DNA of 64,000 nucleotides, taken from the NCBI GenBank assembly GCA_036874045.1, contig CM072341.1, positions 5,344,501 to 5,408,500 on the forward strand, written 5' to 3'. Shown here piece after piece: positions 7,210 to 63,478 of the stretch. The translations under genes and the position numbers were made by a program. The notes beneath the pieces were generated by a model, which worked only from the letters and a program-made list of their open reading frames with translations, searched no databases and had not been told where the DNA came from. Numbering within the stretch: position 1 is the stretch's first letter; every line of letters starts with the position of its first letter. The DNA comes from Cymodocea nodosa (taxonomy: Eukaryota; Streptophyta; Magnoliopsida; Alismatales; Cymodoceaceae).

Positions 7210-7480
7210 TGTTTTGTGTTTTTCAAGCTCTACACTAGAAAAACTTGGATTTGTTACTTCTGTTTTTACTTAGTTAATTTATCTTTATGCCTATTCTTTC
7301 TTTTAGAAGTAAACAAACAACCTTTAATACAATTTAGATATTAATTCCAATTTGTACTTTAATTGCAAGTGCACAGTGTCTATTGTATCAGTGTGCAAGT
7401 ACAGGTCGATCCCACAGGGAATTGCTGAAGAACTTGAGAACTGTTCATTTGTTAACAATCAAATTTATATATTCAATAAG

Positions 7481-7609
7481 CTCTCCGTTGACTTACAGTT
7501 AACTCAACGGACTAAGTTCGTTGAGTTATGGATAACTCAACGTACTAAGTTCGTTGAGTTATGGATAACTCAACGGACTAACCTCGTGGACTTAAGTTAA
7601 CTCCACGAG
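7481..7609. repeat. 33-bp tandem repeat of palindromic GTTGAGTTA modules in the A1 3' LTR
   Basis: The 33-bp unit ACTAAGTTCGTTGAGTTATG (then GATAACTCAACGG) is repeated at 7511-7543 and 7544-7576, with diverged units on both sides. Each unit holds the inverted repeat GTTGAGTTA-TGGA-TAACTCAAC. The 5' LTR of the same element (about 21870-21960) has one unit fewer. Confidence 0.9.
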
Positions 7610-8673
7610 CCTGTCTTTTCTTTTTTAATACTGCTATTTACAGAGGAATTCGGCCAACCATTGGGCGATTCCACAGATTGTAAATAACATCAATTAAGCT
7701 CTTTAATGTTAGTTAACATTGGATTTATCATTAAGCAATACTAACATTCAGATAATTCAAACAGTAACCATTAAAATCTTTAAGTATTTTGAACGAACCA
7801 ATTTCAGTAAACTATAAATCTAAAATAAACATAAAACAATCACAACACTAACAAAGATAACATTAATCACGATACAACACAAACAATACAACACTCAAAT
7901 ACAACATACAAACATAGATAAATTGTTTTTGGTATTTTTGTTTTAATATGGACATGGAAATGGGTGACAGGTGAAATGTAAAGTAATCTCACTTGACAGT
8001 AAATACTTCTGACACTACTTGCAATGCGATTACACCACTGAAAATTAAATCACTTACAATCCTGTCTCCTCTTCCTATGGAATCACGAGTCCAGAATTGC
8101 TAGATGATCTCCTCTTCAGCATACAGCCATCAACCCGAAGCCAAGGCTAAAAGCTTTACGATCTCCTGAAATATGAGTCGGCACTTGGTGAAAATGGCTT
8201 CCCTTCTTGTGACGCGATCACTCCTCATAGTGGTTGTCAGGCACTGTGTTTGGCTCGGAATCGACCCGACATCAAGCAAGTATCCTCACAGACCTCCGAT
8301 GATTGGTGATTATGGTGGTGATGATGGTGATGATAATGGTTGGTGTGGTACTTCAGAGAATTACGATGCCGATGCTCCTCTGCACACACTGTTCGCCCAT
8401 CGATCACACTCCCTTTCTTTTTTTCTTCTTTTCTTTTATATTTCTTCAGTAGTAACTGCTTCTGCTTGAATGGTCAATTGGATTTCCTTCATTCATATCA
8501 ACGACGATGATTTCTTTCCCTACACGATACGTGCAAACGTGGTTTTTTCTCTTCCAACTGTCTGTTCCTGCAACCGCTACAGTGGCATATTAGAAAATAT
8601 ATAGTCTGTGGAGTTACTGATAACTCAACGGACTTTCTTCGTTGATTTAACTATAAAACACATGCATAAATTT

Positions 8674-9025
8674 AACTATCCGATGCTTAGGTGCATTTCG
8701 GATACTTATAAACTTAACTATCCGATGCTCAGATGCATTTTGGATAGTTACTAATAACTCACTGATATATAACTTAAGTAAATCTACCAGATCTCAACAC
8801 GTGTCAACAGTAGTTTAATCATAAAATAACATTTCGGAGAGTTACAGGTCTAACTATCCGATGCTTAGATGCATTTCGGATAGTTACAGCTAACTCACCG
8901 AAAATCCACTTAAGTTAATTTCCTAGAACATGACACGTGTCCTTAGCTATTTTATAAATAAAAAGAGATTTTGGAGAGTTACAGGGATAACTATCCGATG
9001 CCCAGCTGTAATTTTGGATAGTTAT
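8674..9025. repeat. Four CTATCCGA...TCGGATAG stem-loop modules in LTR U3
   Basis: Modules near 8674, 8713, 8851 and 8988 read AACTATCCGATGCTCAGATG followed by CATTTCGGATAGTT, or close variants. The outer 8-10 bases can pair. They lie between shorter ACTCACCGAAA stretches and CACGTG motifs (near 8800 and 9072). The same block occurs in the A1 5' LTR (about 23000-23350) and the shared A2/A3 LTR (about 39880-40120). Confidence 0.8.
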
Positions 9026-9436
9026 AGATAACTCACCGAAAGTTCACTTAAGTCATTCATTATGGTTTCAACACGTGTACTTCAGGAAATAATAAAATAT
9101 TCTCTCAAAACATAACTGTTCGGCAATTTAAACATAACTATCTGATACATATTCAGTCTATTAAACATAACTGTCCAAATTTGTTCGGTATGTTAAACAT
9201 AATTGTCCGAAATATCAGAAAATTCGGATACTTAAGAATTTCACAGCGTGCAACTTACCGACAGTTCATAAATGTACTAAATTAACATTAATTCCCCCAA
9301 ATTAAGCAAATTATTCAATTAAAGCATATAACAGTGCAATTATAACATAATGGCTTAATTCTTATATGATAAGCTAAATATTATGCAATTAACCATCATT
9401 TAACTGTTAATAATATGCACTTTTTCATTCTAAACA

Positions 9437-9450
9437 CTTCCCCCATACCT
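9437..9450 (-). other. A1 polypurine tract
   Basis: On the minus strand AGGTATGGGGGAAG lies directly before the LTR start TGTTTAGAATG. This is the expected position of the plus-strand primer of reverse transcription and it fixes the LTR border. Confidence 0.85.
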
Positions 9451-11198
9451 AAATTTTGCTAGTCCCTTAGCAAACTAAGATCTAATTAATTGGTCTTTAA
9501 AAGTGCTCGAATTATTTCTTCCCCTTTGTTTTTCTTCTGTTTAGCATAAAATATATTTTGTATGTTTTAGTAATCAACCTGCAAATATACTTAGAATATA
9601 TGTAAATTACATACAAAGTATATCATCATCATATAAGTGTTAATTATATTATCGTTTGTTCTTCTTTTCATCATCTATCATCCTAAATTTTCCATTAAGA
9701 TTTCTAGAAGAAATTTCAACAACATACGAATCAAAGTACAATCCAATTCAATCTGATTAAGACAAGTAGAATAAAGAATTGTATCTCCATTAAACAACTT
9801 CAAAATTCAATTCCAGATTCATATTTCAGCAATTCTAGATAACAGAAAATATACTCGATTCATAAGATATCTGTATTTCACAAAACACTTGTATCTTTTC
9901 AGAACAGTATATGTATATTTTTCTTTTCTTTTTTTCGTACTTTAAAAGTTAATTTGACAAGCTTGAATCATAGAAGAGCTTTCTAATGTACCCATGTAAC
10001 GAGCTTTTAGTCAACAATCCCAAATCTGATCAGGATCTTAGGTTGCCAGATTTTAAGAGTCCTTTTTCAGGTCAACAATCTTTACATACCTATCTGCTCA
10101 AGTATAAAAGGCTCGTGATCAAACAAGTCAACAAACTCTCAAAATTTTCCCTCTCTCTTTTTTTATTTTTTATTTTTAACATAGATACAAACACAAAACA
10201 AAACATTAATCACATACTATATATGTACATATTTCATTAATACAGATGCAGTAAAACACCAATCTCATATAGTCTTGCTTCTATCATTTACTGAAAATAT
10301 GAATCCATCTCAATAAGCTCATACTTTCTCTGTAGTTTAATAAGATCTACACATAAATCATTCTATAAGTTCAATCAGTCAAATTAAATGTATCTTTAAT
10401 CATATGTGTTTCATTTAATCTAGAATTCACATCTCAGCTCTTTCAGGACTTCAGATAATTTACTGATTTTTTCATTAAGCATTCTGATTTCATTTTAAAA
10501 TCGTGAAACTGTTAAACTCATGAAATTCAAAAAAACATAAGATACTATATCTAGATTTGCATAACTAGTAAATTCAATAGCATCTTATATAGTCTTCTAA
10601 ATATAACATTCAAGCAGTTTATAAAAATTTTACAGTCTCAATTATCGTATAGTTACAACAAGTTCATAAAAATTTTCAATTTCCTCAAAACTTTGCAGTA
10701 CTATTTTAATTTCTTTAATTAACAAACTTACATGGCTGTTACTTCAATTACCTCCCCCCCATACCTACATTTTGCATTGTCCTCAATGTAAAAGATTTGA
10801 CAATAAGTACAGTAATTGTAGCAGGCATGAATACAGTTTTGCTTGATTTAAAATTCAGGATGAGTAATTAGTTACATACCTTGTTTCATTTATATCTCCT
10901 TCTGCATATTCCGATTTTTGATTCTAAAAACCTTTTTATTCACAGATAAAAGTAAAATATAAAACAAAATAACATTTAACAGATATTAATAAATCAGTGT
11001 CTTGTGTGGAACCCAGGCTCCTATGCCTTTGGTGGCTCACAAGCAAGCTAGTTGGTTTCCTAGAACAGATACCAACAAACTGGATTGATATTTTGTTTTG
11101 TTTTTTTTTTTATAAAACGAACATGAAAACTTCAAAATTCTCTTTTTTTTCTAAAAATAAATGCAGAATACACAACATTAAACACACAAAATCACAGA
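9451..11198 (-). other. A1 3' noncoding region with a second polypurine tract
   Basis: No gene is seen in these 1.75 kb; the frames at 9986-10240 and 10997-11221 look like chance. On the minus strand, 10749-10795 reads ACATTGAGGACAATG, then AAAATGTAGG, then TATGGGGGGGAGG. Athila-type elements commonly carry such a GAGGACAATG...GTGTGGGGGAGG motif in their 3' untranslated part. It closely resembles the 3' polypurine tract 1.3 kb further on. The part between about 9990 and 10700 is also related to the 3' noncoding region of the copia elements C1 and C3. A3 (51448-53100) has the collinear copy. Confidence 0.75.
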
Positions 11199-12340
11199 TT
11201 AAGAACATGATTGAAAAGTAGAAACAAATGGAATAAATGTATCAGTCCAAGCAAACTTTTTAGGCATAGTTCTTCTTGCTATTAATTCTCTTTTAATGCA
11301 GTTCTTGTTCCTTCTTAATTTGTAAACATGTAATATATTATAAATTCCAAATACGAGTGTATTACCATTAATGATATGTAATCCAGAAAGGGATCCTTTT
11401 TGGTTCCAAGGTAATGTAGCAGTTTCTATTTCTACATCTATTTCAATATACTCCTCTTCCCACTTCCATTCATTTATGTCTTCCATAATCCATATTTGAA
11501 ATTTCATCAGTTCATCCCACCATCTTATCAGACATAAAGTAGGATCATCTTCTTCATTATACCACATTCCTATTTGAATTTCATTAAATTCTAGAGATGG
11601 TGGTTTAGCTATTTCACTCGGTATAGGTAAAATTTCTATATATACATCATAACTGTCTTTGCTCACTATGTATAAATCAGATCCATATGCTAATGATATC
11701 TCCGTGACTAGATATATATATCCATCAAGTATGACATGTGTTTGGTTAATTAATGATTTCTGTCCTAGATATATCATAATATTTTCATTCCAAGATCTGT
11801 TCAGAAAATTATACACACTTAAGCGTAAATCTTCACCCCAATTTCCTGTAGGTCTCCAATAATATAATTTTTCAAGAATTGCAGAATTTTTATCAGAAAA
11901 TATTAAAGCTAACCCACAATTTACAGTTGATGCTTCAAATCTATTAGGTCTTCCTCCTATATTCCATTCTTCTCTTGTTATAGGATTTCTTATCAAAATA
12001 TCAGGTAATAATAAACTTGCATACCTTGGTCTCGTCTTGTATATGATTAATCCTTATCTATCCCCATAATATGATTTATTCCTTTTAATGCATTGGATGG
12101 AATTCTAGTAGTTTCTTCCATAGCCAGATATTCATGGGTATTTGAACTACGATTAAATGACCTCCATTTGAATCCATCTCTAATCTTAGTCATTTTTGCA
12201 GCTTGTAGTCCTTGAAAATATTTTTCTTCAATACAGTCTTTAATTTCCTTTGATACACAACACAACCTACACAGATCTTTAGCTGACAAGTTACTTAGTA
12301 CTTCCCTTAGTGCATCCAATGGTAATTGCATCAATTCCAT
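11199..12340 (-). pseudogene. F-box / F-box-associated (FBA) protein gene carried by A1, one frameshift
   Basis: Plant F-box proteins couple substrates to SCF ubiquitin ligases: the F-box binds SKP1 and the FBA part binds the target. The first frame (12340 to 12047, 97 codons) starts MELMQLPLDALREVLSNL and continues SAKDLCRLCCVSKEIKDCI, a clear F-box at residues 5-45. The second frame (to 11199) carries an FBA-like region with PDILIRNPITREEW, WWDELMKFQIW and an end near WTDTFIPFVSTF. One missing base near 12050 separates the frames; otherwise about 370 codons are open, the usual F-box/FBA length, with no intron. It lies between gag and the 3' noncoding region inside the LTRs, and A3 carries the same gene tail at the same place. 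So it is a captured gene, not the host locus. The FBA subtype is uncertain. Confidence 0.8.
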
Positions 12341-12407
12341 TTGTCGATTCTGTAAAACACAAACAAAAATTTAGTAGAGACAAAAATTAACATAACTACT
12401 GCACACC

Positions 12408-12472
12408 CTCGTGGAGTTAAGGCATAACTCAACGGACTAAGTTCGTTGAGTTAAAAATTAACTCTACGATAC
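12408..12472. repeat. GTTGAGTTA modules between gag and the F-box gene
   Basis: The short spacer (12341-12530) holds CTCGTGGAGTTAAGGCATAA, then CTCAACGGACTAAGTTCGTT, then GAGTTAAAAATTAACTC: two imperfect inverted repeats of the kind found throughout families A and C. Confidence 0.7.
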
Positions 12473-12530
12473 TATTAACTAAAAATAAAAAACATATATA
12501 CATACAGATAGTTGCTTCAGATATGCTGCT

Positions 12531-13872
12531 TCATTCAGCTGCCCTCCCAGAAGAGGTATCAATTTCATTAACCGTTCTATTGACAGGATTAGGTATAGCT
12601 TGTATTGGCAATCCTCTAGTAGGTCTAACTTCCATTGGTTCCTTCTGTCTAAGTGATATATTTCTATTCTGATTTTGAATTGCAGCATTTCCAAATATAA
12701 ATTCTAGATGATTGTTTAATTGTTGGATTATCTTTTCTAATTTCTCTATTCTAGCTCCTTGTTCAATTAATACTTCATAACTTATGTTCTTCTCATTTAT
12801 ATTTTCTCCTCCCTGGAAATTGTTGTTTCTCCAAGATAAATTCAAGTGATTTCTCCAATTAGGATGATAAGAATTTCCCAAGTTATCTCTCTGGTTTCTA
12901 GCATAAATAATATCTAAGTCATTTATGTTTGCATTCTTTTCTACTAGCTTTTGATTTAATGATAACTCTTCTATTTTCTTTGTTAATTCATTTAATTTCA
13001 CTTCAAGCATAGTATTGGAATTTATTTCATGCATTCCTCTTGGCAATATTCTTTTATCTGTAATAGCTTCAACCGAATTTTCCCACTGTGTAGTTCTTTT
13101 TGCAAAATTTTCTAAATATGACCATGCTTCTTCACTACATAATTTTAAAAATCCATTTTGACAAGTAGATTCTAATAAAGATTTCGTTGAAACATCTATG
13201 CCTTCATAAATTATACTTATTAGTTGTGCTCTACTCATTGCATGATGTGGGCATTGAGTTAGTAAATCTTTAAATCTTTCAAAATATTTTCAGAATGATT
13301 CACCTTGTTTTTGGCTACACATTAATATTTCTTTCTTCTTTTTAATCGTTTGATGTGTTGAATAATATTTTTCCAGAAAAACAGAGCAAAATTCAGTCCA
13401 TGTAGAAATTGAATCAGGCGATAGAGTATATAACCATCTCTTAGCTGTCTTTTAAAGAAAAAGGAATATATCTAAGTTTAATAGCATCTATACTCATGTT
13501 CGGCATTTTAATCATTTGACAAACTTCGTTAAATTCTCTAAGGAAATAATAGGCATCCTCTCTTTCTAATCCATGAAAATATGGCAATTGACTAATATAA
13601 TTAGATTTCAATTCAAACCTATCTCCCTCAAAGTTTGGCAATCGAATATATGAAGATTCATCAATTAATTCTGGATACAGAATCTCTCCTAATGGTTTTT
13701 CTATTGGAGCAGTCATCTCTACGTTCTCTTTTAAAGAAAGGTTAGCTACACCCCAAAGAATTTCGTTAAAGTTCAGTTCAGAAAATTTTTCAGTACTCCT
13801 CTATAATGAAAATTCCTAGGTAGGTGTTTTTACTAATCGTTTAGTGCTTAGAGAACGAGTCCATGTGCTCAT
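12531..13872 (-). pseudogene. A1 gag capsid region, located 3' of pol and ORF3
   Basis: This is an Athila/Tat-type Retrotrans_gag capsid part. Landmarks from the start: PLGEILYPEL, LPNFEGDRFELKSNYISQLP, HFHGLEREDAYYFLREFNEV, a WLYTLS / TWTEFCS core, FLEKYYP, QGESFWKYFERFKDLLTQCP and GIIYEGIDVSTKSLLES. A coiled-coil stretch (ELTKKIEELSLNQ) and HPNWRNHLNLSWRNN follow. The end is SGRAAE and a stop at 12531. The likely start is MSTWTRS at 13872, because in A4 this leader is open; in A1 two CAG codons have become TAG. Further breaks lie between 13238 and 13441. No zinc knuckle is present; the knuckle sits alone at the 5' end of the element (21.4 kb). A canonical gag would have both in one frame before the protease. 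Confidence 0.85.
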
Positions 13873-14774
13873 AAATAAATAGCAGAAGATTAATTGCATA
13901 CTAGTCTAAAGCTTTCCATTCAATAAATATTTGTTGTCGGATGAAGTTGAATCAGTTGCTTCTCCTTCCAGTTCCTCCAACGCATTCTCCTTTCTTTTAA
14001 AAGTGCTGGTAACTCGTAAATAACATTTTGTTATATATATATACTGCACATCCATAAATTGAATAAATCTCGTTGTAAGAACGTGGCTTGCAACATGCAT
14101 CGTGGTTCCTGTTTTTATGGGTACGTGTACCACTACTAATTTCAAATTTTGATAACCGCTAAACTGATGAAGCTTCGTTCATGGTTAAAAGAATAACTAT
14201 TCTGCTTAATCCATGAACTAACCTCGTTGAGTTATAGAAAACTCAATAGAATACAGTCGGTTACTGTTGCTAACTCCACAGACTAACTTTGTTGAGTTAT
14301 AGATAACTCAACGGAGTGACTTTATATTATATTACTGACCTCGTGGAGTTACGGTTAACTCAACGGACTTACTTCGTTGAGTTAACACTTAGCAACTTCT
14401 AAGTTTTACTCCCGTAAGTTCCTCTCTATTCTTTTTTTTTTTTTTCATTCTGCTAACTGTAATAAAGTTAAATCTATGTCATTAATGCATCATTCTAATT
14501 AAAATACGTTTAAATCTGAGCATTATATAAAGATTTAACTTGCAGGTTATTTTATGTTTTGCAGAATTTACATTTTACCTTATAACATGCAGAAATTTTT
14601 AAGCAGTTATCCTATCATTCAGCAAATTGTAAATCTGTTACATATTCATTCATAAAGTTTCACAAATTAGATAATATTCAATAAATTCCATTCATTTCAC
14701 ATCCAAAACACTTATGAAAATTGCATCTAAAAAATTTACATTCATTAATATGAATCAATTACATTACAAGTACA
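13873..14774 (-). other. A1 spacer between ORF3 and gag with a palindromic module array
   Basis: No gene is supported. 14213-14388 holds repeated inverted modules such as GTTGAGTTATAGATAACTCA and GTGGAGTTACGGTTAACTCA. A T-run lies at 14430-14445. 13906-14145 has a frame of 79 codons whose end (NALEELEGEATDSTSS) is kept in part in A3 and A4. It could be a 5' leader exon of gag: GTATGT, a splice-donor-like motif, follows in A3 and A4. Confidence 0.6.
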
Positions 14775-16242
14775 TCATACAATTTCATACAATTTTACAT
14801 AAGTAGACGAACAATATAATTTAATCTCTATGCCTCTAAGTTCATCTACTTCCTTCTGAAATTTTTCTAATTGAAGCTCTAATTGATTAATCCTCTCTAC
14901 TGCTCCTGTAATTCCTCCAGAAGGTACAGCTAGTTTTGCAGCTACAAAATTTCTGTATTCTTTCACTGAAATGGTTCTTGATCTGATCCTTTTTGATGTC
15001 CATTTAGTGAAATCGATACAGTCCACCATCAGTAGTGGAATCAAATCTCCATAAAATAATTTCTTCTTCACTATTTTCAGCTTGTAGATAAAAACTGCAA
15101 ACCAATTTATTTGGATCTTATTTACAACTGCATATGTGGCCCATTTGACAAATTGACTTAATTCTATGTCATGGCCCTGTCGTTGATAGACATTCTTAAT
15201 CAGAATGTTAGCTACCATGTGTGCTTTACCATTTAAATGCTTTAATTTGTTTAATAATGGCACACTAGGATTGATAGCTAAACAATCCTTAATTTGCTGT
15301 TCAGTCCATTCAACTACAGTTGTATCTTCCTCATAATTGGTACTTCAGATTTAATTTCCTCATATTCAGGCACTTTTTCTTTTCCTTTCTTTTTTCTGAT
15401 TAATTGTGTCTGCTCTTCCTCTTCATCTTCTGAAATTAAATCTACAAAAATAGGCTCTACAGGCCTTCGAGCCACAAGTACTAACTCTTCCTATTTAACT
15501 TTTCCTATAATTATTGGTCTCGAAGGACCAGCTTCATCTCCTTTGCAACAGGTTTGGCAACAATTCTGGCAGTAGCTGCGTGATGCTGTTCCACTTTGAT
15601 TTTATATTGGGCTTTCAACTTTTCTATAACCCTCTTTTTGTAAAGTGCATCAAACACTAGGTGGGCTTTGGCCACTAACAAATCTTCTGATTCTCCTTGG
15701 TTCTTCCCAACTTGAACCAATTCTGCAAATTCTCTTATTTCTTCTTCAGTCGAAGGCCCCATCATTTCTGCTCGTGCCAACGACTTAAATGGTGGAACTG
15801 AAGGTCTAGGTTGCTACTCCTTAGGAACAGGTCTTTCAACAGTCGGCTCCTCTTGTCCTTTAGTTGCCTCTTCTTCATTTTCTTTCCTTTCTTGCTCCTA
15901 GATCACCCGTTTAGCTCGTCTACAGATTCGTCTTTTGAACCAGAGTCCAGACTTACGTTGGATTAATTCAAGGGCTACTTCATAGTTTGGCCGTATCTTT
16001 CTTTCTTTACTTAATGCAATTTCAGTTGCCACTCTAATTCGTGTCTCCATTATCTATGGTATCTGTATTTCTAACTCAACTAAAATTTTTCTCAAGTTAA
16101 AGAGTTCTGATTCTACCTTTTGTAGCTCTTTCTCTCTTGTTGTATTTCTGATCTTCTGCCTCGTGTGCCATTCTTCAGATTCCTTTAGAAACTGTGCGGT
16201 GTCAACTACCTCTTCCTAGAATTCAGGCGTCATCTTCCTCAT
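14775..16242 (-). pseudogene. A1 ORF3 (Athila-type 3' ORF), internally deleted
   Basis: This ORF behind integrase starts MRKMTPEF at 16242. It runs through a charged Glu/Lys-rich middle (GPSTEEEIREFAELVQVGKN at 15.7 kb; EDEEEEQT) into a C-terminal region with LNKLKHLNGKAHMVANILIK, GHDIELSQFVKWATYAVVNK and LFYGDLIPLLMVDCIDFTKW, and ends in a coiled coil (LELQLEKFQKEVDEL). The position and C-terminal sequence suit the ORF that Athila-lineage elements carry between pol and the 3' LTR, often called env-like and related to the plant transposon protein domain. Its function is unknown. Compared with A2 about 0.85 kb is missing near 15330, between EIKSEVPI and the TVEWTEQ region. Several in-frame stops are present. 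Confidence 0.7.
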
Positions 16243-16834
16243 CGTGGAGTTACACAACAGCACAGAATTGCTCTGATTTCTACTGTTCTAGATTCTAAAT
16301 GTTTTGCTGGATAATGCCCCCCAAAACCCTAGGTTTTAGTTTAAATAAGCCCTAAGTTTAGGCAGGTAATCGGGTCATTTCCCGAACCAACTATTACTAT
16401 TTTATTCGTGGTCTTAGCTACAGTACTCCATTGAGTTACAATTAACTCAACGGAATAAGCTCGTTGACTAATTCAAGACTCAACGGAGTAAGCTCGTTGA
16501 GTTAAGCGTAACTCACCGGACTCCCCGTACAAGCAAATATAATAATAAAAATATTATAGAGAATAGTTTTTCTATTGTTTTTACCGATTTAACCGATACT
16601 ATGTTTGGGTCAGACCTAAATATCATTTATTATTATTATCATTTTTTCTTTCGATTGAACTGATACTATGTTTCGGTAAAACCAATATTTTTTTGAAAAT
16701 TAATATACATTTTTTTTTTATGTTTCGGTCATACCGATGATCTAGTCGGTTGAACCACAACGATTTTTATGTTTTATATATATTTCTAATGTTTTTTTTT
16801 TTTTAAATATATAAACATAAAAACTGATTTCTTA
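16243..16834. repeat. A1 post-integrase spacer: GTTGAGTTA and ACCGAAACATAG modules
   Basis: Noncoding. 16425-16522 has GTTGAGTTA/TAACTCAAC units around TCAACGGAATAAGCTCGTTG. 16555-16760 holds repeated AACCGATACTATGTTTCGGT-like units, whose ends ACCGA/TCGGT can pair, joined by A/T-rich stretches. The same two blocks in the same order follow integrase in A2, A3 and (decayed) A4. Confidence 0.75.
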
Positions 16835-18157
16835 TTAAGTAAAGCTCGAGTAGTCCTCTACTTTGACTTCTTCTATAATTCCAAAGGAGCTTTTTGGTGC
16901 TTTCAGAATAGGTTTAAGTCTTTGTCCATTTACTTTAAATATATTCTAATTTTTTGGATTTTCAATTTCAATAGCTCAATATGGATAAACATTTCGAACT
17001 ATGTAAGGTCCTACCCATCTAGATTTCAATTTTCCTAGATGGTTATGGAGTCTAGCCATATAAAGATATACTTCTTGTCCTATTTCAAAGCTTTTAGGAA
17101 TAATTTTTTTATCATGCCAAAATTTAATTTTTTCTTTTTCTCTTACAGTCTTCGAATAAGCTTCATTTCTAAATTCTTCTAATTCAATTAATTGCATTTT
17201 TCTATTTTCAGCAGCTTGATTTAAATCAATGTTCAGAGTTTTTAATGCCCAATAAGCTTTATGTTCTAATTCAACACGTAAATGACAACTTTTTCCATAT
17301 ACTAGCCTAAAAGGTGACATACCTAAGCTCGTTTTATAAGCAGTTCTATAAGCCCAAAGTGCATCTATCAATCTATTAGCCCAATCTGTTCTAGTAGGAT
17401 TTACTACTTTTTCTAAGATTACTTTAATTTGTTTGTTTGCACTTTCTACTTCTCCACTTGTTTGCAGATGATATGATGTTGCAATTTTGTGGTTTACTCC
17501 ATATTTCTTCATTAAGGCTTCAAAACTTCTATTACAGAAATGAGTTCCTCTATCACTGATAATAGCTTTAGGTATTCCAAATCTGGCAAATATATTTGTT
17601 CTTATAAATTGTATTACCACTTTGTTATCATTAGTTTTTGTAGGAATAACTTTTATCCATTTAGATACATAATCCACCCCCAACAATATGTAATTAAATT
17701 GATTAGACATAGGAAATGGACCCATAAAATCTATTCCTCACACATCAAAGATTTCAACCTCAACAATAGGATTAAGAGGCATCATATTCCTCTTTGATAT
17801 TCTTCCTATTTGTTGACATCTTAAACAACTTAAGCAATATTTATGAGCATCTTTACATAATGTTGGCCAATAAAACCCACATTGCAGAATTTTTGCAGCA
17901 GTTTTCCCTAAACCAAAATGTCCTCCACAAGCTTGGTCATGATAGAAAGACAATATGCTCGGATATTCAGTTTCTAGAACACACCTCCTTAAAACCAGAT
18001 CAGGACATTTCTTAAATAAGTATGGGTCTTCCCAATAGTAATATTTTACTCTTGAGAAAAACAATTTCTTATCCTGTCTATTCCAATCCTTAGGTGTTAA
18101 ACTAGTAACTAAGTAATTAACTATGTCTGCATACCAAGGTATTGTGTTAATGGTCAT
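16835..18157 (-). pseudogene. A1 integrase
   Basis: Ty3/gypsy integrase inserts the cDNA into the genome. The zinc-binding part is visible (HDQACGGHFGLGKTAAKIL, then CLSCLRC), followed by EIFDV before a stop and [20 protein letters not shown] after it. The core has [16 protein letters not shown] and [12 protein letters not shown], giving the DDE residues. The tail ([20 protein letters not shown]) ends SSFT and a stop at 16835. A TGG-to-TGA type change breaks the WGIDF motif near 17738, and a second stop lies near 16976. Sequence and order match the Athila lineage. Confidence 0.9.
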
Positions 18158-19039
18158 TAATTGTTCATCAGGAAAATTATCCTTAATTTCACTATTTGAT
18201 TTTTCTATTTGTAATCTTGATAAATGATCTGCTACTACATTCTCACAACCTTTTTTATCTTTAATTTCTAGATCAAATTCTTGTAATAATAATATCCATC
18301 AGATCAATCTAGGTTTAGTTTCTTTTATCTTTATTAGATGTTTTAGGGTTGAATGATCCGTGTATACTATTACTTTAGCTCCAATCAAATATGATCTAAA
18401 CTTTTCTAAAGCAAACACAACAGCTAATAATTCTTTTTCAGTAGTTGTGTAATTAACTTGAGCATCATTTAAGGTTTTGCTTGCATAATGAATCACTCTA
18501 AGAGATTTTTCTATCTTCTGTCCTAACACTGCTCCAACAGCAAAATCAGAAGCATCGCTCATTAACTCAAATGGATGGTTCAAATCAGGTGCTTGAATTA
18601 TAGGAGTTGAAATTAAGCTAGTCTTAAGTCTTAAAAATGCTTCCTTGCAATTTTTATCAAAGTTAAATGGAACATCTTTTAATAGATTAGTTAAAGGTCT
18701 AGCTATCTTGCTAAAGTCTTTAATAAATATTCTATAAAAACCTGCATGTCCTAGAAATGATCTAATATCTTTTACTGATTTAGGTTCTGGTAGATTAGAT
18801 ATTACTTCTATTTTAGCTTTATCTACTTCCAACCCTTTTTTAGAAACAACATGCCCTAAGACTATTCCTTGTTTAACCATGAAGTGACATTTTTCTCAAT
18901 TTAAAACCAGATTGTTTTCCACACAGCGTTTTAATATTTGGTCTAAATTGCTTAAACACACTTCATATGAGTTGCCATATACAGTAAAATCATCCATAAA
19001 TATTTCTAAAAATTCTTCAATCATTCAAGTAAATATGCC
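18158..19039 (-). pseudogene. A1 reverse transcriptase (3' half) and RNase H
   Basis: The RT catalytic motif FMDDF lies at 18986-19000, followed by [38 protein letters not shown] and [12 protein letters not shown]. RNase H follows with [42 protein letters not shown] and [10 protein letters not shown]. It ends in VADHLSRLQ before integrase. Stops lie near 18298 and 18890. The block continues the open frame to its right (19040-20506). Confidence 0.9.
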
Positions 19040-20506
19040 CTACACACACCTTTGAAAGGTAGCTGGCGCATTGCATAATCCGATTGGCATTCTTTTAAAA
19101 GCATAAGTTCCATTAGGATAGGTGAAAGTTGTTTTCTCTTGATCCTTTAATACTATTGGAATTTGATTATACCCTGAATACCCGTCTAGGAAATAAAAAT
19201 ATGCTTGCCCTACTAATCTTTCCAACATTTGATCTATAAAAGGTAAGGGAAAATGATCTTTCCTAGTCACAGCATTCAGCTTCCTATAGTTTATACATAC
19301 TCTCCAGCTTGATTGAATTCTAGTGGGTATCAAGTCTTGAGTTTCATTCCTAATAATTGTTAATCCTGATTTCTTGGGAACTACATGGATTAGACTAACC
19401 CACGAGCTATCAGAAATTGGATAAATTATATCATTATCTAACCATTTAACTATTTCCTTCCTGACTACTTCTTTAAGGTTTGGATTTAATCTCCTCTCAG
19501 GAATTCTAACAGGTTTAGCATTCTCTTCTAAATATATGTGGTGACAGTATAAAGTTGAACTTAACCCTTTTATATCAGTCATAGTCCATTCTATTGCTTC
19601 TTTATAACTTTTTACTACATCTTTTAATTTAGCTATTTGATCCTCTTTTAAATCTGAAGCAATAATGATTGGACAGGTTCGTTTATCTTCCAAAAATATA
19701 TAGGTTAATTCAAGAGGTAAAGGTTTTAATTCTAAATGTTGCCCATCAAAAGCTAGAGCTCCTAATTGAACATCATCATTTTTTAAATTAATTTCTTCCC
19801 GATCTCTTTCTATATTTATGCTTTCACTTTCTTTTAAAATTTCAGAATTGATTTTCCTATTTAATTCTTCTTGAATCACATCATCTAACATATCTCCTTC
19901 ATCCTCTAAAAAGTCTATGGTATGTAAGGACAATTCTAACTCCTCAAACCTTTCTAGTTTGAAAATATTTAATTGAGTATCCTCATTACCATAGGCTAAC
20001 TTCATTACTCCAGTTTTACAATTGATAACAACCCCTGATGTTGCTAAAAATGGCCTTCCCAAAATTAAAGATGTATCACTATTTTTATGCTTAATTTGTT
20101 GGGAATCCAAAATTACAATATCAATAGGATATATAAAATTTTTTATTTTAATTAAGACATCCTCTATTTTTCCTCTAGGATATCTTATACTTCTATCAGC
20201 TAATTGAATAACCGTACTAGTAGGAGTTAAGCTTTCTAATCCTAAGGATGCAAATATATCATTTGGCATAACATTTATACCTGCACCTAAGTCTATTAAT
20301 GTTTTTTCTAGAATGGTATTTCCTATGGTACATGATATAACAGGGATTCCAGGATCAGATAACTTTTTAGGAATTTGTGGCAGAAATAGGGAACTACTTT
20401 GCTCAGCTAAAAAGACCTTTCTAAGAACTTTTCGCTCTGTTTTCTTAGTACACCAATCCTTCAGAAATTTAGCACAAGGTGGCATTTTCTGTAATAGATC
20501 TAACAA
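19040..20506 (-). CDS. A1 protease and 5' half of reverse transcriptase, 488 open codons
   Basis: This is the longest open frame in the window. Residues 1-50 are the protease leader (MPPCAKFLKDWCTKK, FLPQIPKKLSDPGIPVI). The aspartic protease active site DLGAGINVMP is at residue 72 (about 20293), with LADRSIRYPRGKIEDVLIK and ILGRPFLATSG further on. A linker of about 100 residues leads into RT: LNPNLKEVVRKEIVKWLDND, WVSLIHVVPKKSG, RVCINYRKLNAVTRKDHFPL, FLDGYSGYNQIP (first catalytic Asp) and MPIGLCNAPATFQRC. All this is typical of Athila. The frame is one piece of a gag-pol polyprotein and has no natural start at 20506. The usual PFGLCNAP is changed to PIGLCNAP. Confidence 0.9.
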   Translation of the reverse strand: MLDLLQKMPPCAKFLKDWCTKKTERKVLRKVFLAEQSSSLFLPQIPKKLSDPGIPVISCTIGNTILEKTLIDLGAGINVMPNDIFASLGLESLTPTSTVIQLADRSIRYPRGKIEDVLIKIKNFIYPIDIVILDSQQIKHKNSDTSLILGRPFLATSGVVINCKTGVMKLAYGNEDTQLNIFKLERFEELELSLHTIDFLEDEGDMLDDVIQEELNRKINSEILKESESINIERDREEINLKNDDVQLGALAFDGQHLELKPLPLELTYIFLEDKRTCPIIIASDLKEDQIAKLKDVVKSYKEAIEWTMTDIKGLSSTLYCHHIYLEENAKPVRIPERRLNPNLKEVVRKEIVKWLDNDIIYPISDSSWVSLIHVVPKKSGLTIIRNETQDLIPTRIQSSWRVCINYRKLNAVTRKDHFPLPFIDQMLERLVGQAYFYFLDGYSGYNQIPIVLKDQEKTTFTYPNGTYAFKRMPIGLCNAPATFQRCV

Positions 20507-21481
20507 CAGAATGTTAACTTGTACTTTTTCAAAAATTTCTCTAATTTTTTCTTATTTTTAAGGTATTGTTTGTTGTAATCTTTCAGGATAGGGTGCTAAA
20601 GATTTTAATTTCAAAGACTCTTTTTCTTTCAGTTGATTTGTTTGATCATTTTTAGCTTCATTCGCAGATTCAGATTGTTCATCAGTGATTTCTAGATTTT
20701 CAGCTATTACATTTTCACTATCATTTTGATTTTTACTCTTATCCACCTTCATAACATTTTCATTTTGAGTTCTTGGTGGTATATCAGTTCCAGATCTTAA
20801 TGTTACACATACATCTTCCAGATTTTCGTTACTTTAATGATGTTTTTGTATATCATTTTCGTGATTATGATCTTCAATTGGTTTTAGTTTTGAAGTGCAT
20901 TCTTTAAATTCTCTTGCATTGGTATTTTTTGTTTGCTGTATATTTTGCAAATTATGCAGGTTTATAACATTATAATTTTCATTGTCCTGTTGCATAACTT
21001 GTATTTTCATTGCATTTTCGTCTAATGCTTTTAATTTTTGATCTAGATCATCTAATTTCATTGCATTCAATTTTTGATCAATTTTCTTTATGTTTTTTTT
21101 AGTTTCATAAATTATATCCTGTTTAGGTTCTGAATATGCTTCCTTATAGTTTAATTGGTTGACTTCTTGTTGTTGACACACAAAGTATTCTAGTTTGTCC
21201 AGATTTTGCTCTATACTATGCTCCAGTCTGTCATAGCTATCCCAAACTTCAGTGTCTCTCATCATATTACACATTCTATACTAACCATTAGTTGGGTAAA
21301 CTATAGGATTCACATACTCGACTCTATTATATTGAGGATAATTCATTTGTTGTTCATGGGCTCTAACCATTTGTAAATGTCTCAGTTTCAAACAATCAGA
21401 AATGTCGTGTCATTCAGAATTGCAGAATTCACATATGCTAATTACAGGTTTCAGAAATCTTTGAGCATAAGCATATGCCAT
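20507..21481 (-). pseudogene. A1 zinc-knuckle gag linker, first coding region of the element
   Basis: It starts MAYAYAQRFLKP at 21481, 85 bases behind the PBS. A CCHC-like knuckle follows, then QQMNYPQYNRVEY, an Asn/Lys/Glu-rich coiled-coil region (IDQKLNAMKLDDLDQKLKAL) and a short block LEDVCVTLRSGTDIPPRTQ. Athila gag normally has a similar TLRSG block near its end, and the usual PxPxRLQ motif appears here as APYPERLQQTIP. So this is the back part of gag without capsid. Stops near 20556, 20833 and 21290 break it. The capsid part is at 12531-13872. Confidence 0.8.
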
Positions 21482-21565
21482 ATTCTCAATTACAGAAGAA
21501 AACACACAACTCTAGCTATTAAAATGAAACAGCTCTAACAGTTGCTTAAATTAATTCAATTCAAT

Positions 21566-21583
21566 TCTCTAGCAACAGCACCA
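21566..21583 (-). other. A1 primer-binding site (tRNA-Asp type, decayed)
   Basis: TGGTGCTGTTGCTAGAGA on the minus strand. It differs from the tRNA-Asp complement TGGCGCCGTTGCCGGGGA at five positions, all C-to-T or G-to-A, as expected from deamination of methylated cytosine after insertion. Confidence 0.8.
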
Positions 21584-21590
21584 TAAAACT

Positions 21591-23756
21591 TGTTTGGGTT
21601 TTTCTAGCTCTACACTAGAAAAACTTGGATTTGTTACTTCTATTTTTACTTAGTTAATTTATCTTTATGCCTATTCTTTCTTTTACAAGTAAACAAACAA
21701 CCTTTAATATAATTTAGATATTAATTCCAATTTGTACTTTAACTGTAAGTGCACAGTGTCTATTGTATCAGTGTGCAAGTACAGGTCGATCCCATAGGGA
21801 ATTGCTGAAGAACTTGAGAACTATTCGTTTGTTAACAATCAAATTTATATATTCAATAAGCTCTCTGTTGACTTACAGTTAACTTAACGGACTAAGTTCG
21901 TTGAGTTATGGATAACTCAACGAACTAACCTCGTGGACTTAAGTTAACTCCATGAGCCTATCTTTTCTTTTTTAATACTGCTATTTACAAAGGAATTCAG
22001 CCAACCATTAGGCGATTCCACAAATTGTAAATAACATCAATTAAGCTCTTTAATGTCAGTTAACATTGGATTTATCATTAAGCAATACTAACATTCAGAT
22101 AATTCAAACAATAACCATTAAAATCTTTAAGCCTTTTGAACGAACCAATTTCAGTAAACTGTAAATCTAAAATAAACATAAAACAATCACAACATTGACA
22201 AAGATAACATTAATCACGATACAACACTCAAACACAACATCCAAACATAGATAAATTGTTTTTGGTATTTTTGTTTTAATATGAACATGGAAATGGGTGA
22301 CAGGTGAAATGTAAAGTAATCTCACTTGATAGTAAATACTTTCGACAATACTTGCAATGCGATTACACCACTGAAAATTAAACCACTTACAATCTTGTCT
22401 CTTCTCCCTATAGAATCGTGAGTCTAGAATTGCCAGATGATCTCCTCTTCAGCATACATGCATCAACCCAAAGCCAAGGCTAAAAACTTTACGATCTCCT
22501 GAAATATGAGTTGGCGCTTGGTGAAAATTTCCCTTCCCGCGACGCGATCACTCCTCATAGTGGTTGTCAGGCACTGTGTTTTTCTTGGAATCGACCCGAC
22601 ATCAGGCAAGTATCCTCACAGACCTCCATGATTGGTGATTATGGTGGTGATGATGATGGTTGGTGTGGTACTTTAGAGAATTGCGACGTCGATCCTCCTC
22701 TACACACACTGTCCGCCCATCAATCACACACCCTTTCTTTTTTTCTTCTTTTCTTTTATATTTCTTCAGTAGTAACTGCTTTTGCTTGAATAGTCGATTG
22801 GATTTCCTTCATTCATATCAACGGCGATGATTTCTTTCCCTGCATGATACGTGCAAACGTGGTTTTTTCTCTTCCAACTATTTGTTCCTACAATTGCTAC
22901 AGTGGCATATTAGAAAATATATAGTCCATGGAGTTACAGATAACTCAACAGACTTTCTTCATTGATTTAACTATAAAACACATGCATAAATTTAACTGTC
23001 CGATGCTTAGGTGCATTTCGGATACTTATAAACTTAACTATCCGATGCTCAGATGCATTTCGGATAGTTACTAATAACTCACTAATATATAACTTAAGTA
23101 AATCTACCATATCTCAACACGTGTCAGCAGCAGTTTAATTATAAAATAACATTTCGGAGAGTTACAGGTCTAACTATTCGATGCTTAGATGCATTTCGGA
23201 TAGTTACAGGTAACTCACCGAAAATCCACTTAAGTCAATTTCCTAGAACATGACACATGTCCTTAGCTATTTTATAAATAAAAAGAGATTTCAGAGAGTT
23301 ACAGGGATAACTATCTGATGCCTAGTTGCAATTTCGGATAGTTATAGATAACTCACCGAAAGTTCACTTAAGTCATTCATTATGGTTTCGACACGTGTAC
23401 TTCAGGAAATAATAAAATATTCTCTCAAAACATAAATGTTCGGCAATTTAAACATAACTATCTGATACATATTCGGTCTATTAAACATAACTATCCGAAT
23501 TTGTTCGGTATGTTAAACATAACTATCCGTAATATCAGAAAATTCAGATACTTAAGAATTTCACAGCCTGCAACTTACCGACAGTTCATAAATGTACTAA
23601 ATTAACATTAATTCCCTCAAATTAAGCAGATTCTTCAATTAAAGCATATAATAGTGCAATTATAACATAATGGCTTAATTCTTATATGATAAGCTAAATA
23701 TTATGCAATTAACCATCATTTAACCGTTAATAATATGCACTTTTTCATTCTAAACA
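21591..23756 (-). repeat. A1 5' LTR
   Basis: 2166 bp. On the minus strand it starts TGTTTAGAATG (23756) and ends CCCAAACA (21591), seven bases before the PBS. It is nearly identical to the 3' LTR, with one 33-bp GTTGAGTTA unit fewer (about 21870-21960). It carries the CTATCCGA stem-loop modules (23000-23350), CACGTG near 23119 and 23393, and the GC-richer leader (22440-22740). No gene is supported; the frame at 22511-22789 runs antisense to the element. Confidence 0.9.
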
Positions 23757-39049: not shown

Positions 39050-39494
39050 TTGTATAGTTTGTCTACTTGTACTTGTATATATTTGTATGAAAAATATCTG
39101 ATTTGATTGTATTGTAATTGATTCATATGAATGAATATATGTTTTTTAGATATATTTTTCATGCCTATTTAGAATGATGAAATGGATGAGCTATATTGAA
39201 TGTTATATAATTTGTGGAACATTATCCATGAATGTTTAAAAAGATTTACAGTTTGTTGAATGATAGGATTTAATAATAGATGCTTAAAAATATCTACATG
39301 CTGCAAGGTAAAATGCAAATTCTGCATAACATGAAATGAACTACAAGTTAAATATTTATATAATGTTCAGATTTAAATAAATTTTGATTAGAATGCTGCA
39401 TTAATGACATATATTTAACTTTATTTCAGTTAGCAGAATGTAGGAAAAAAAAAAAAAACATAGAGGTACTTATGAGGAGTAAACTTAGAGGTAG
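39050..39494 (+). other. A2 3' end without gag, F-box gene or polypurine tract
   Basis: Noncoding continuation of ORF3, matching the spacer between ORF3 and gag in A3 (49186-49580), with a poly(A) run near 39445. It then passes straight into the LTR start at 39495 (GAGGTAG, then TGTTTAGAATG). The gag/F-box/3' noncoding block and the polypurine tract are missing. Confidence 0.8.
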
Positions 39495-50065: not shown

Positions 50066-51060
50066 ATGAGTACATGGACTCGTTCTCCTTGCACTAAACG
50101 ATTAGTAAGAACACCTACCTAGGAATTTTCATCGTAGAGGAGTACTGAAAAATTTTCTGAACTGAACTTTAACGAAATTCTTTGGGGTGTAGCTAACCTT
50201 TCTTTAAAAGAGAATGTAGAAATGGCTGCTCTAGTAGAAAAACCATTAGGAGAGATTTTGTATCTTGAATTAGTTGATGAACCTTCATGTATTCGATTGC
50301 CAAACTTTGAGGGAGATAGGTTTGAATTGAAATCTAATTATATTAGTCAATTGCCACATTTTCATGGATTAGAAAGAGAGGATGTCTATTATTTCCTTAG
50401 AGAATTTAACGAAGTTTGTCAAATGATGAAAATGCCGAACATGAGTATAGATGCTATTAAACTTAGATATATCTCTTTTTCTTTAAAAGACACAATTAAG
50501 AGATGGTTATATACTCTATCGCTTGATTCAATTTCTACATGGACTGAATTTTGCTCTGTTTTTCTGGAAAAATATTATCCAACACATCAAACGATTAAAA
50601 AGAAAAAAGAAATATTAATGTGTAGCCAAAAACAGGGTGAATCATTCTGGAAATATTTTGAAAGATTTAAAGATTTATTGACTCAATGTCCGCATCATGC
50701 AATGAGTAAAGCACAATTAATAGGTATAATTTATGAAGGCATAGATGTTTCAACAAAATCATTATTAGAATCTACTTGTCAAAATGGATTTTTAAAGTTA
50801 TGTAGTGAAGAAACATGGGCATATTTACAAAACTTTGCAAAAAGAACTGCACAGTGGGAAAACTTGGTTGAAGCTATTGTAGATAAAAAAATATTGCCAA
50901 GAAGAATGCATGAAATAGATTCAAATACTATGCTTGAGGTGAAATTAAATGAATTAACAAGGAAAATAGAAGAGTTATCATTAAATCAAAAGCTAGCAGA
51001 AAAGAATGCAAACATAAATGACTTAGATATTATTTATGCTAGAAACCAGAGAGATAACCT
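50066..51060 (+). pseudogene. A3 gag capsid region, fused to the F-box tail
   Basis: MSTWTRSPCTKR starts at 50066 and reaches stops near 50121. From 50222 the frame is open (MAALVEKPLGEILYLELVDE). It carries the whole capsid block: LPNFEGDRFELKSNYISQLP, WLYTLSLDSISTWTEF, FLEKYYPTHQTIKKKKEIL, QGESFWKYFERFKDLLTQCP and GIIYEGIDVSTKSLLES, then the coiled coil ELTRKIEELSLNQ. At about 51060, behind RDNLGN, the sequence jumps into the F-box gene. The gag end (HPNWRNH part) and the F-box front are lost. The gag frame runs on out of phase to 51118. Confidence 0.85.
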
Positions 51061-51447
51061 GGGAAATTTCAAATGGGAATGTGGTATAATGAATATGATG
51101 ATCCTACATTATGTCTGATAAGATGGTGGGATGAATTAATGAAATTTCAAATATGGATTATGAAAGACATAAATGAATGGAAGTGGGAAGAGGAATATAT
51201 TGAAATAGAAGTAGAAATAAAAACTGCTACATTACCTTGGAACCAAAAAGGATCCCTTTCTACATTTCATATCATTAATGGTAATACACTTGTATTTGGA
51301 ATTTATAATATTTTACATGTTTACAAATTAAGAAGGAACAAGAACTGCATTAAAACAAAATTAATAGCAAGAAGAACTATACCTAAAAAGTTTGCTTGGA
51401 CTGACACGTTTATTTCATTTGTTTCCACTTTTCAATCATGTTCTTAA
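51061..51447 (+). pseudogene. A3: C-terminal third of the F-box/FBA gene
   Basis: 124 open codons (51073-51447) match the end of the A1 F-box/FBA gene with about a dozen differences and no stop: GMWYNEYDDPTLCLIRWWDE, NEWKWEEEYIEIEVEI, TATLPWNQKGS, NTLVFGIYNILHVYKLRRNK and the end FVSTFQSCS. The F-box domain is absent because of the gag/F-box deletion. It sits at the same place as in A1, behind gag and before the 3' noncoding region. Confidence 0.8.
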
Positions 51448-53100
51448 ACTATAATTTTGTGTGTTTAATGTTGTGTGCATTCTGCATTTATTTTTAGAAA
51501 AAAAAAGAAGAAATTTTTTATTTTTTTTTAGTTTTCATTTTTATTTTATAAAAAAAACAAAATATCAATCTAGTTTGTTGGTATCTGTTCTGGGAAACCA
51601 ATTGGCTTGCTTGTGAGCCACCAAAGGCATAGGAGCCTGGGTTTCACACATGACACTGATTTATTAATATCTGTTAAATATTATTTTGTTATATATTCTA
51701 CGTTTATCTATGAATGAAAAGTTTTTCAGAATCAAAAATCGAAATATGCAAAAGGAGATACAAATGAAATAAGGTATGTAACTAATTACTCATCCTGAAT
51801 TTAAATCAACAAACCTGTAGCCATGCCTGCTTCAATTACTGTACTTATTGTCAAATCTTTTACATTGAGGGCAATGCAAAATGTAGGTATGGGAGGGAAG
51901 TAATTGAAGTAACACCCATGTAAGTTTGTTAATTAAAGGAATTAAAATGGTACTACAAAGTTTTGAGGAAATTGAAAATTTTTATGAACTTGTTGTAACT
52001 ATCCGATAATTGAGATTGTAAAATTTTTATAAACTGCTTGAATGTTATATTTAGAAGGCTATATAAGATGCTATAGAATTTACTATTTATGTAAATCTAG
52101 ATATAGTATCTTATGTTTTTTTTTCTGAATTTCATGAGTTTAACAGTTTCACGATTTTAAAATGAAATCAGAATGCTTAATGAAAAATCAGTAAATTATT
52201 TGAAGTCCTAAAAGAGCTGAGATGTGAATTCTAGATTAAATGAAACACATATGATTAAAGATACATTTAATTTGACTGATTGAACTTGTAGAATGATTTA
52301 TGTGTAGATCTTATTAAACTACAGAAAAAGTATGAGCTTATTGTTATGGATTCATATTTTCTGTAAATGATAGAAGCAGGACTATATGAGATTGGTGTTT
52401 TACTACATCTGTATTAATGAAATACATACATATATAGTATGTGATTATTGTTTTGTTTTGTATTTGTAGTTTGATTGAAAAAAAAATAAAAATAAAAATA
52501 AAAAAGGAAAAAAAAAAGGGAAAATTTTGAGAGTTTATTGACTTGTTTGATCACGAGCCTTTTGTACTTGAGCAGATAGGTATGTAAGGATTGTTGACCT
52601 GAACAAGGACTTTTGAAATCTGGCAACCTAAGATCCTGGTCAGATATGGGATTGTTGACTGAATGCTCGTTACATGGGTACATTAAAAAGCTCTTGTATG
52701 ATTCAAGCTTGTCAAATTAACTTTTAAAGTACAAAAAAAAAAGAGAAAAAAAACATATAATGTTCTGAAAAGATACAAGTATTTTGTGAAATACAGATAT
52801 CTTATGAATCGAGTATATTTTCTGTTATCTAGAATTGCTAAAATATGAATCTGGAATTGACTTTTGAAGTTGTTTAATGGAGATACAATTCTTTATTCTA
52901 CTTGTCTTAATTAGATTGAATTGGATTGTACTTTGATTCGTATGTTGTTGAAATTTCTTCTAGAAATCTTATTGGAAAATTCAGGATGATAGATGATGAA
53001 AAGAAGAACAAACGATAATATAATTAACACTTATGTGATGATGATATACTTTGTATGTAATTTGCATATATTCTAAGTATATTTGCTGGTTGATTATTGC
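51448..53100 (+). other. A3 3' noncoding region, truncated before the polypurine tract
   Basis: Collinear with A1 11198-9600. ACATTGAGGGCAATGCAAAA followed by TGTAGGTATGGGAGGGAAG (51871-51900) is the internal purine tract. 51950-52640 is the part related to the copia 3' noncoding region. Simple A-rich repeats lie at 52480-52530. At 53100 it stops in GCTGGTTGATTA against a copia LTR; the last 150 bases, the polypurine tract and the 3' LTR are missing. Confidence 0.75.
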
Positions 53101-56179: not shown

Positions 56180-56365
56180 TGGACATTCAAGAGAATAAAA
56201 TCTAGAGCCATTTCAGTGAAGGAATATAGAAATTATGCTGCTGTTGCTTTTTCTATTGCTGGACCTTCTAGAGACTTTACAGGAGCTGTAGAACATATAA
56301 ACTAATTAGAACAACAATTAGAAAAGCTCTAGAAGGAAATAAATGAACTTAGAAAAAAAGACTAA
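56180..56365 (+). pseudogene. A4 fragment: C-terminal end of ORF3
   Basis: Codons match the ORF3 end of the other copies: WTFKRIKSRAISVKEYRNYA, then GAVEHIN, a stop, LEQQLEKL and ELRKKD with the stop at 56365. The rest of ORF3 is deleted. Confidence 0.7.
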
Positions 56366-62763: not shown

Positions 62764-63478
62764 TGTTTTGCAGGAGGAAACAACATCAAAATGGATCTTA
62801 GATAGTGGAGCGTCAAGTCACATGACTGGATAGAAAAGTCTACTATAAAATTTTACAAATACCATGAAAGGAAGTGTAACATTTGGAAACAAAAGCAAAG
62901 ATAAAATCATAGGTATGGGTAATGTTCAAATAACTCCGACTTGTGTTATTTCGAATGTACTATATGTAGAAAACCTAGGATTTAATTTACTGAGTGTTAT
63001 AAAACTAACTGAAAATGGATATTATGTAGTGTTTGAAGATAATGTATGCAAAATTATTGATAAAAATACAGATAAAATTAAGTTTATTGCTAAAAGAAAA
63101 GGTTCTGTATGTATTTTATCTTTACCTTCTAGTGTAGTTGATTTAAATTCATGTTTGCTAGCTGAAACTAGTGATGCATATCTGTGGCATAGAAGGATTG
63201 GGCATATAAATATGAAACTGTTACATAAACTATCTAGAAAACATTTAGTGAGAGATTTACCAAAGATTAAATACTCAAAAAACTTTATGTGTGATGCATG
63301 TGAGTTAGGTAAATTTCACAAAAACTCTTTTAAATCCAAAACTGATATTTCAAGCAAGAGAGTCTTAGAACTTATACATATGGATCTATTTGGAGCAACA
63401 AGAATCATGAGTCTTGGTAGTAAACGGTATGTATTTGTTTTAGTAGATGACTTCTCTAGATACATTTGGGTATTTGTC
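62764..63478 (+). pseudogene. C3 protease and start of integrase, cut by a deletion
   Basis: It continues in the gag frame: EETTSKWILDSGASSHMTG (protease DSG) and a stop, then NKSKDKIIGMGNVQITPTCV and NLGFNLLSVIKLTENGYYVV. Integrase: LWHRRIGHINMKLLHKLSRK, CDACELGKFHKNSFKSK, HMDLFGATRIMS, VFVLVDDFSRYIWVF. At about 63478 it jumps to the end of pol (YVMCKML out of phase; CTATGTGATGTG in DNA). The rest of integrase, RT and RNase H (about 2.4 kb in C1) are missing. Confidence 0.85.

Follow-up and report, generated by a model that had tools for sequence, protein, structure and literature searches.

An F-box gene carried by an Athila-like Ty3/gypsy retrotransposon family in Cymodocea nodosa

LTR retrotransposons that carry host coding sequence are known in plants, maize Bs1 being among the transducing elements named in passages of PMC7264820; the same passages describe transduced genes in one or few copies, cite 400 to 1343 transposon-captured genes for maize, rice and sorghum, and place plant extra open reading frames mostly between pol and the 3' LTR. 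The orchid Ty3/gypsy element Gypsy_Pa_2799, which encodes an AlkB-like 2-ODD protein, is described as having retained a host-type gene through several amplification rounds (parts of PMC9289625, a screen of 121 angiosperm genomes). F-box proteins that bind SKP1-type adaptors are encoded by other plant parasites, as polerovirus P0 and nanovirus Clink (part of PMC3588083).

We analyzed a stretch of 64,000 nucleotides from Cymodocea nodosa, referred to as the window, in which an earlier note, made from the letters alone, had placed an F-box gene inside an Athila-like element. As in Bs1, host coding sequence is carried here; in contrast to the few copies described for transduced genes, one gene occupies at least 144 places and is also found in old subfamilies. 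As in Gypsy_Pa_2799, a host-type gene has been kept in Ty3/gypsy; the orchid element, however, has an RNA demethylase domain, is 25 kb long and is compared with Ogre in the sections consulted of PMC9289625, whereas the present one is Athila-like and encodes a putative F-box adaptor. P0 and Clink belong to viruses of other architecture, and we liken them by description, not by sequence. In common with LTR elements that have captured host genes, the gene lies inside LTRs, exists in many copies and has a host-like relative. As a whole, the data are best explained by a long-kept extra F-box gene of an Athila-like Ty3/gypsy family, a reading to which we assign a probability of roughly 0.8. An exact-word search of open PMC papers recognized no description of an F-box gene in an LTR element; the term 'F-box' is absent from the main text of PMC9289625, whose full chart is in its supplement, and from the passages seen of PMC6317226 and PMC11728184.

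The E1 element and its F-box gene

The F-box gene is enclosed by E1, a 16.5-kb Athila-like element on the minus strand (7213-23756; Table 1). Plant substitution rates lie between 1.3e-8 and 7e-9, and with these the K2P distance of 0.055 between the LTRs, which are 92% identical, dates the insertion to about 2-4 million years ago. The target duplication measures 5-7 bp, and the insertion is clean, since a second, uninterrupted copy of the invaded copia-type element, at 62.2-63.5 kb, matches the flanks. A small gag-F-box unit with its own LTRs was rejected, as no LTR pair lies inside 9571-15330 and the E1 pair encloses pol too. A tRNA-Asp PBS is linked to the Athila lineage, and the corresponding pattern was present in 5/5 copies with up to 5 mismatches. 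Passages of PMC6317226 name tRNA-Asp among non-chromovirus primers. We classify the element as 'Athila-like' only, by a comparison of gene features. The E1 family resembles Athila in its PR-RT-RH-INT order, its tRNA-Asp-like PBS, a gag akin to the Athila-type gag P0001 and an extra ORF behind pol with weak similarity to Transposase_32, such as sunflower Athila has (part of PMC11728184); it differs in having the capsid gag after pol, a Zn knuckle at the pol start and an F-box gene before the PPT. In E3, a second element of the family in the window, a neighboring ORF (48421-48795) matched PF20167 at E=2e-4, below the cut-off.

Table 1. Mapped features of the window (positions within the 64,000-nucleotide stretch)
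Feature	Position	Strand	Basis or remark
3' LTR of E1	7213..9436 (approximate)	-	starts TGTTTAG at 9436; 92% identical to 21593-23756
Polypurine tract (PPT)	9437..9449	-	G-rich, abuts 3' LTR start
3' non-coding region	9571..11198	-	second G-rich box at 10754; downstream of F-box gene in 30/30 loci L009-L038
F-box gene, C-terminal (propeller/FBA-like) part	11199..12060	-	265-codon ORF; 144/144 scored genomic matches near full length
F-box gene, N-terminal part with F-box domain	12050..12340	-	PF00646 3.1e-11; frameshift at C-terminal junction
Palindrome, gag/F-box gap	12428..12450	.	pattern
gag capsid gene	12531..13716	-	91% and 80% identical pieces to E3 gag; pol upstream of gag
Palindrome cluster, ORFX/gag gap	14209..14381	.	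pattern
ORFX, likely part of Transposase_32-like Athila extra ORF	14775..15263	-	tblastn map
Palindromes, integrase/ORFX gap	16446..16501	.	pattern
Integrase (rve + H2C2)	16976..18157	-	PF00665 4e-12; PF17921 3.5e-13
RNase H	18299..18880	-	PF17919 8.8e-33; PF17917 1.7e-31
Protease and reverse transcriptase	19040..20506	-	PF00078 7.6e-13; Asp_protease_2 6.5e-4, below cut-off
CCHC-type Zn knuckle near pol frame start (ATG 21481)	21392..21433	-	stop inside in E1; intact in E2
PBS, tRNA-Asp-like	21566..21583	-	PBS pattern
5' LTR of E1	21593..23756 (start ~21590)	-	92% LTR identity
gag of E3	50222..51118	+	PF03732 3.2e-19
F-box gene tail in E3, head deleted	51065..51476	+	within 92% identical block
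Empty-site counterpart of E1 insertion point	63028..63034	.	second copy of copia-type element

Read from 12340, the head of the F-box gene is open to about 12050, where one frameshift marks its junction with the C-terminal part, whose frame continues down to a stop at 11199. Sister copies with an open frame have 379 codons in a single exon. The window head matched PF00646 with 43.1 bits against a Pfam cut-off of 20.5 (E=3.1e-11), and the curated F-box cut-off was also passed by L051, L010, L050 and L055. With LTRs, PBS and PPT all found, the placement of an F-box gene within an Athila-like element was confirmed. The accompanying claim of an FBA-like region stood up less well. Plant F-box beta-propeller proteins (FBA_1, AT5G49610-like, DUF7595) likewise have an F-box followed by a C-terminal part, which is weakly matched here; among the sequences tested, however, this part stayed below every Pfam cut-off, the best FBA_1 match being E=0.022 in sister copy L010, and the window piece gave no Pfam match at E<=1. 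The FBA-like label is plausible, if weak by profile. Against 5.8 billion proteins, the C-terminal piece yielded 326 candidates, none at E<=1, and alignment A2 yielded 3437, none at E<=0.1; a PDB sequence search with window pieces returned 0 matches. Strands predominate in the C-terminal part of two AlphaFold models, both of low confidence (pLDDT 42.0 and 43.2). A chance open frame is excluded by the F-box profile match together with the genome copies.

Other family members lie nearby. E3, the A3 of the earlier note, holds the tail of the same F-box gene as had been stated, its head deleted and its gag kept, and 9571-11581 of E1 is 92% identical to 51065-53096 of E3. No F-box was seen in E2 or in an older relative at 54.7-58.7 kb, both in the window. 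The stretch 29357-53096 comprises two elements in the same orientation with a common LTR at 39490-41553 (LTR-int-LTR-int), and E2 has lost gag and F-box at a single junction near 39492. In the fourth, older relative (54687-58681, about 79%), integrase is immediately preceded by 3'-region sequence and followed by ORFX and gag, which may reflect deletion or tandem recombination. Palindromes of the form CTCAACG-9-CGTTGAG occur in the LTRs of E1 (7503-7591, 21883-21938) and in the gaps INT/ORFX, ORFX/gag and gag/F-box; they are also present in older subfamilies (L039-L044), if not in every gap of every copy, while L053, L055, L064 and L065 had none and L054 one marginal match. They could be internal promoters, splice or RNA elements.

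Copies, gene order and age of the family

We scanned the host assembly (374.6 Mb) with the C-terminal piece and obtained 144 scored matches, all near full length and including the window's own copy, apart from which they were 89-95% identical; scored among 6185 candidates, 144 is a lower bound. All 150 matches scored of 4743 candidates for a 101-residue piece of the older copy L001, which may overlap with the 144, were likewise near full length, and they were 70-85% identical, L001 itself excluded. In 30 fetched loci (L009-L038, L009 being the window copy), F-box head and tail were followed by the same 3' region throughout. These results uphold the earlier proposal that the gene spread with the element, and the search for further family copies suggested there found many members carrying it; a single local rearrangement is ruled out by this number of copies. 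The F-box lies within LTRs in E1, and behind a PBS in L040 and L041. Gag sequence precedes the F-box in 23/30 loci (with large deletions in L010 and L019), and the remaining seven (L011, L012, L016, L017, L020, L026, L037) retain the gag leader only, cut at the same place. The F-box frame is open in 12/30 copies, nine by pattern plus L011, L016 and L017, which have an altered LP core; the LP dipeptide is missing in three of the four open gag-less copies. In L011, L016 and L017, which lack the dipeptide, the frame also extends from an ATG in the gag leader. Across 44 loci, the LP core was found in 35, and IP in one more. Among the best eight F-box profile matches fetched, seven were diverged element members and one was a host F-box/kelch gene, L005. 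FBA_1 (PF07734) had no match in the 374.6-Mb assembly, where the control matched nowhere either; the host FBA repertoire may be small or intron-interrupted.

From the PBS, E1 reads knuckle-PR-RT-RH-INT-ORFX-gag-Fbox, followed by PPT and LTR. Its pol-start frame begins MAYAYAQ and includes the CCHC knuckle, and a capsid search 5' of pol gave nothing significant in 5/5 copies (best E=0.11). We read the gene order in six further 10-kb stretches ahead of F-boxes (L039-L044). L040 has the full order of E1 from the PBS onward, L041 the same without gag, and the older L043 and L044 show INT-ORFX-gag-Fbox; L039 and L042 have gag and F-box, with no pol within the 10 kb ahead of the F-box. A tandem artefact was rejected as the source of this order, because the E1 LTRs enclose a single pol and a single gag and the insertion has an empty-site counterpart. 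The database gag P0001 aligns with the window gag, with gaps around the P0001 Cys/His stretch, which the pattern used does not recognize as a full CCHC; the downstream W-R-N region is kept in the window gag. Because the same pattern found no CCHC knuckle in the window gag pieces and a knuckle sits at the pol start, gag appears to be split, with the knuckle at the start of pol and the capsid behind it. The pol-gag order is probably older than the F-box family, since all ten gag loci of other lineages found with P0001 (L053-L062; 36-42% to P0001, from at least four integrase-tree branches) lie about 0.4-0.6 kb behind integrase. The pattern placed the knuckle inside the gag region in 9/10 of them. 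Canonical orders only are given in the passages seen of PMC9904347, and an exact-word search of open PMC papers found no description of a pol-then-gag order. Textbook LTR elements are arranged differently, which prompts the question of how elements with this order produce more capsid than enzyme.

The F-box gene is also present in older subfamilies (55-86% identical) and in one deep lineage, L055 (35%). The gene tree leads from L001/L046/L047/L049 through L050, L006/L003, L052 and L051 to the recent burst; the seven gag-less copies form no single clade in it, in a poorly resolved part. Gag and F-box diverge in the same rank, L003 < L006 < L001/L042 < L008. The L055 lineage (three copies, 84-100%) has a knuckle-bearing gag 59% identical to that of the E1 family, followed after 0.3-0.6 kb by a homologous F-box gene with stops, 34.6% identical to the main family over 356 aligned positions (E=2e-63). 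Among the ten other-lineage gag loci, an F-box within 1.5 kb after gag was found only in L055; none lay within 5.5 kb after gag in L053 and L054. The integrase tree puts L054 and L056 nearer to the main family than L055, so that both one capture with later loss and two captures fit. Two captures, with the L055 and main lineages each taking a different member of one host F-box group, are a serious if tentative possibility: the L055 F-box is closer to the host-like gene L068 (38%) than to the main family, and L054, the nearer relative by integrase, is without the gene in the range searched. The identical position and orientation just after gag, however, speak for a shared event, which with loss accounts for the pattern too, and the tree bearing on this is an unrooted one of 5 sequences with unequal rates. 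At L063 (2585-3709), an F-box of main type follows the gag of the distant lineage L058 at a distance of 2.6 kb, without a main-type gag, and may be part of a mosaic or a neighbor. The earlier account of a captured gene spread with its element thus holds as to the spread; in addition, the element has pol ahead of gag, and the gene, common to diverged lineages, is old.

Constraint and origin of the F-box gene

Among recent copies, the NG86 w of the F-box gene was 0.47-0.48 (F-box domain 0.24, linker 1.47, C-terminal part 0.44), which is no evidence of constraint because w in non-coding control sequence ranged from 0.31 to 0.95. The dN/dS comparison among element copies suggested earlier was therefore uninformative at recent depth, and the signal came from uneven codon-position differences between subfamilies. 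Recent drift looks neutral, since the N/S ratio was equal for shared and private variants in the 30 recent copies (Fisher p=1.0). Shared stop variants numbered 3 in the F-box gene, 9-14 in non-coding pseudo-frames and 8 in the C-terminal part of gag. Between subfamilies, codon-position differences against L010 were 82/49/106 for L001 (p=3e-5) and uneven at p<0.02 each for L006 (55/33/69), L050 (75/50/84), L049 (77/56/98), L003 (57/33/58) and L008 (41/42/68), with a similar lean, given without p, for L051 (29/23/35), L052 (49/32/59), L046 (84/61/90) and L047 (76/62/87). A non-coding control at similar depth, L050 against L010, was flat (67/69/63, p=0.87). One of 21 non-coding comparisons was uneven, that of the recent copy L021 (25/26/44, in all three pseudo-frames), and most were flat by eye. 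Against L055, the F-box gene gave pS 0.72, pN 0.43 and position counts of 172/125/199, with synonymous sites near saturation. The loci were drawn from protein or profile searches, which favors conserved copies.

The F-box protein was thus constrained while the subfamilies diverged, with evidence of moderate strength. An alternative is that the gene is a passenger, captured and multiplied but unused, its apparent constraint dating from before capture and from the choice of conserved copies. The neutral look of recent variation, the open frame in only 12/30 copies and the stronger constraint on gag and INT (w = 0.19 and 0.16 at depth) all agree with this. We nevertheless consider it unlikely, given the excess of third-position differences among old subfamilies where the control is flat, the small number of shared stops relative to non-coding pseudo-frames and the F-box score retained by L055 at 35% identity.

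With the L055 piece as query, we found a candidate for the donor group at C18:3446270 (L068), where one open frame runs for 391 codons with no stop. L068 matched PF00646 at 5e-10 and, below cut-off, DUF7595 (3.3e-5; 23.8 bits against 27) and Beta-prop_AT5G49610-like (0.0046); a PDB search by sequence gave 21 weak matches, mostly ribosomal/ubiquitin fusions (best E 0.049). By sequence it is the best donor-group candidate among the matches listed (38% identity with L055, 27% with the main family); nearer host relatives may be masked by the element copies that dominate the scored matches. It could instead be a domesticated derivative of the element and no kin of the donor, as its lack of an intron and a nearby RNase H match (34% identical to that of the E1 family, of another gypsy lineage) might suggest. 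This is very unlikely, because L068 resembles the host gene L005 in composition (GC 0.505 and GC3 0.63 against 0.496 and 0.58) and not the element F-boxes (GC 0.30-0.31, GC3 0.21), has the sub-threshold matches to plant F-box propeller families and lies in 4.2 kb without an Athila-type gag or INT match. The earlier suggestion of capture from mRNA, made on the ground of the missing intron, was dropped: the closest host-like relative found has no intron itself, and intron loss via mRNA capture therefore cannot be claimed. Close kinship with L005, which we take to be HAWAIIAN SKIRT-like, was also rejected (BLASTP E=0.57; hhalign probability 2.4%, E=0.019, collinear but weak).

Putative function and meaning for plant transposons

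For the long-kept F-box gene we propose the following course. An ancestor of the family would have captured a host F-box-propeller gene, set between gag and PPT. The gene was then passed from subfamily to subfamily and has reached at least 144 sites by copying. Judged by its domains, the protein most likely acts as a putative SCF adaptor: the F-box would bind host SKP1 and the propeller-like part a target, which would then be ubiquitinated. Our leading guess for that target, a speculative one, is a host factor that limits the element. It is conceivable, though doubtful, that the pol-first lineage has carried an F-box adaptor through much of its history and turns the plant SCF against a silencing factor or another restriction factor, in parallel to polerovirus P0 with its independent origin. 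We hold it possible, again tentatively, that silencing is not involved and that the protein instead targets the cell cycle or proteins made by the element itself; the cell-cycle reading has a viral precedent in the nanovirus F-box protein Clink (part of PMC3588083).

Seven of the eight best F-box matches being element members, F-box gene counts in such genomes may be inflated by element copies. The usual view of host genes in LTR elements is that of passengers in few copies; here one, a putative adaptor that would select proteins for destruction, is present in many copies and in diverged subfamilies. Together, these findings offer one gene with which to test whether protein turnover serves plant transposons as a weapon against their host.
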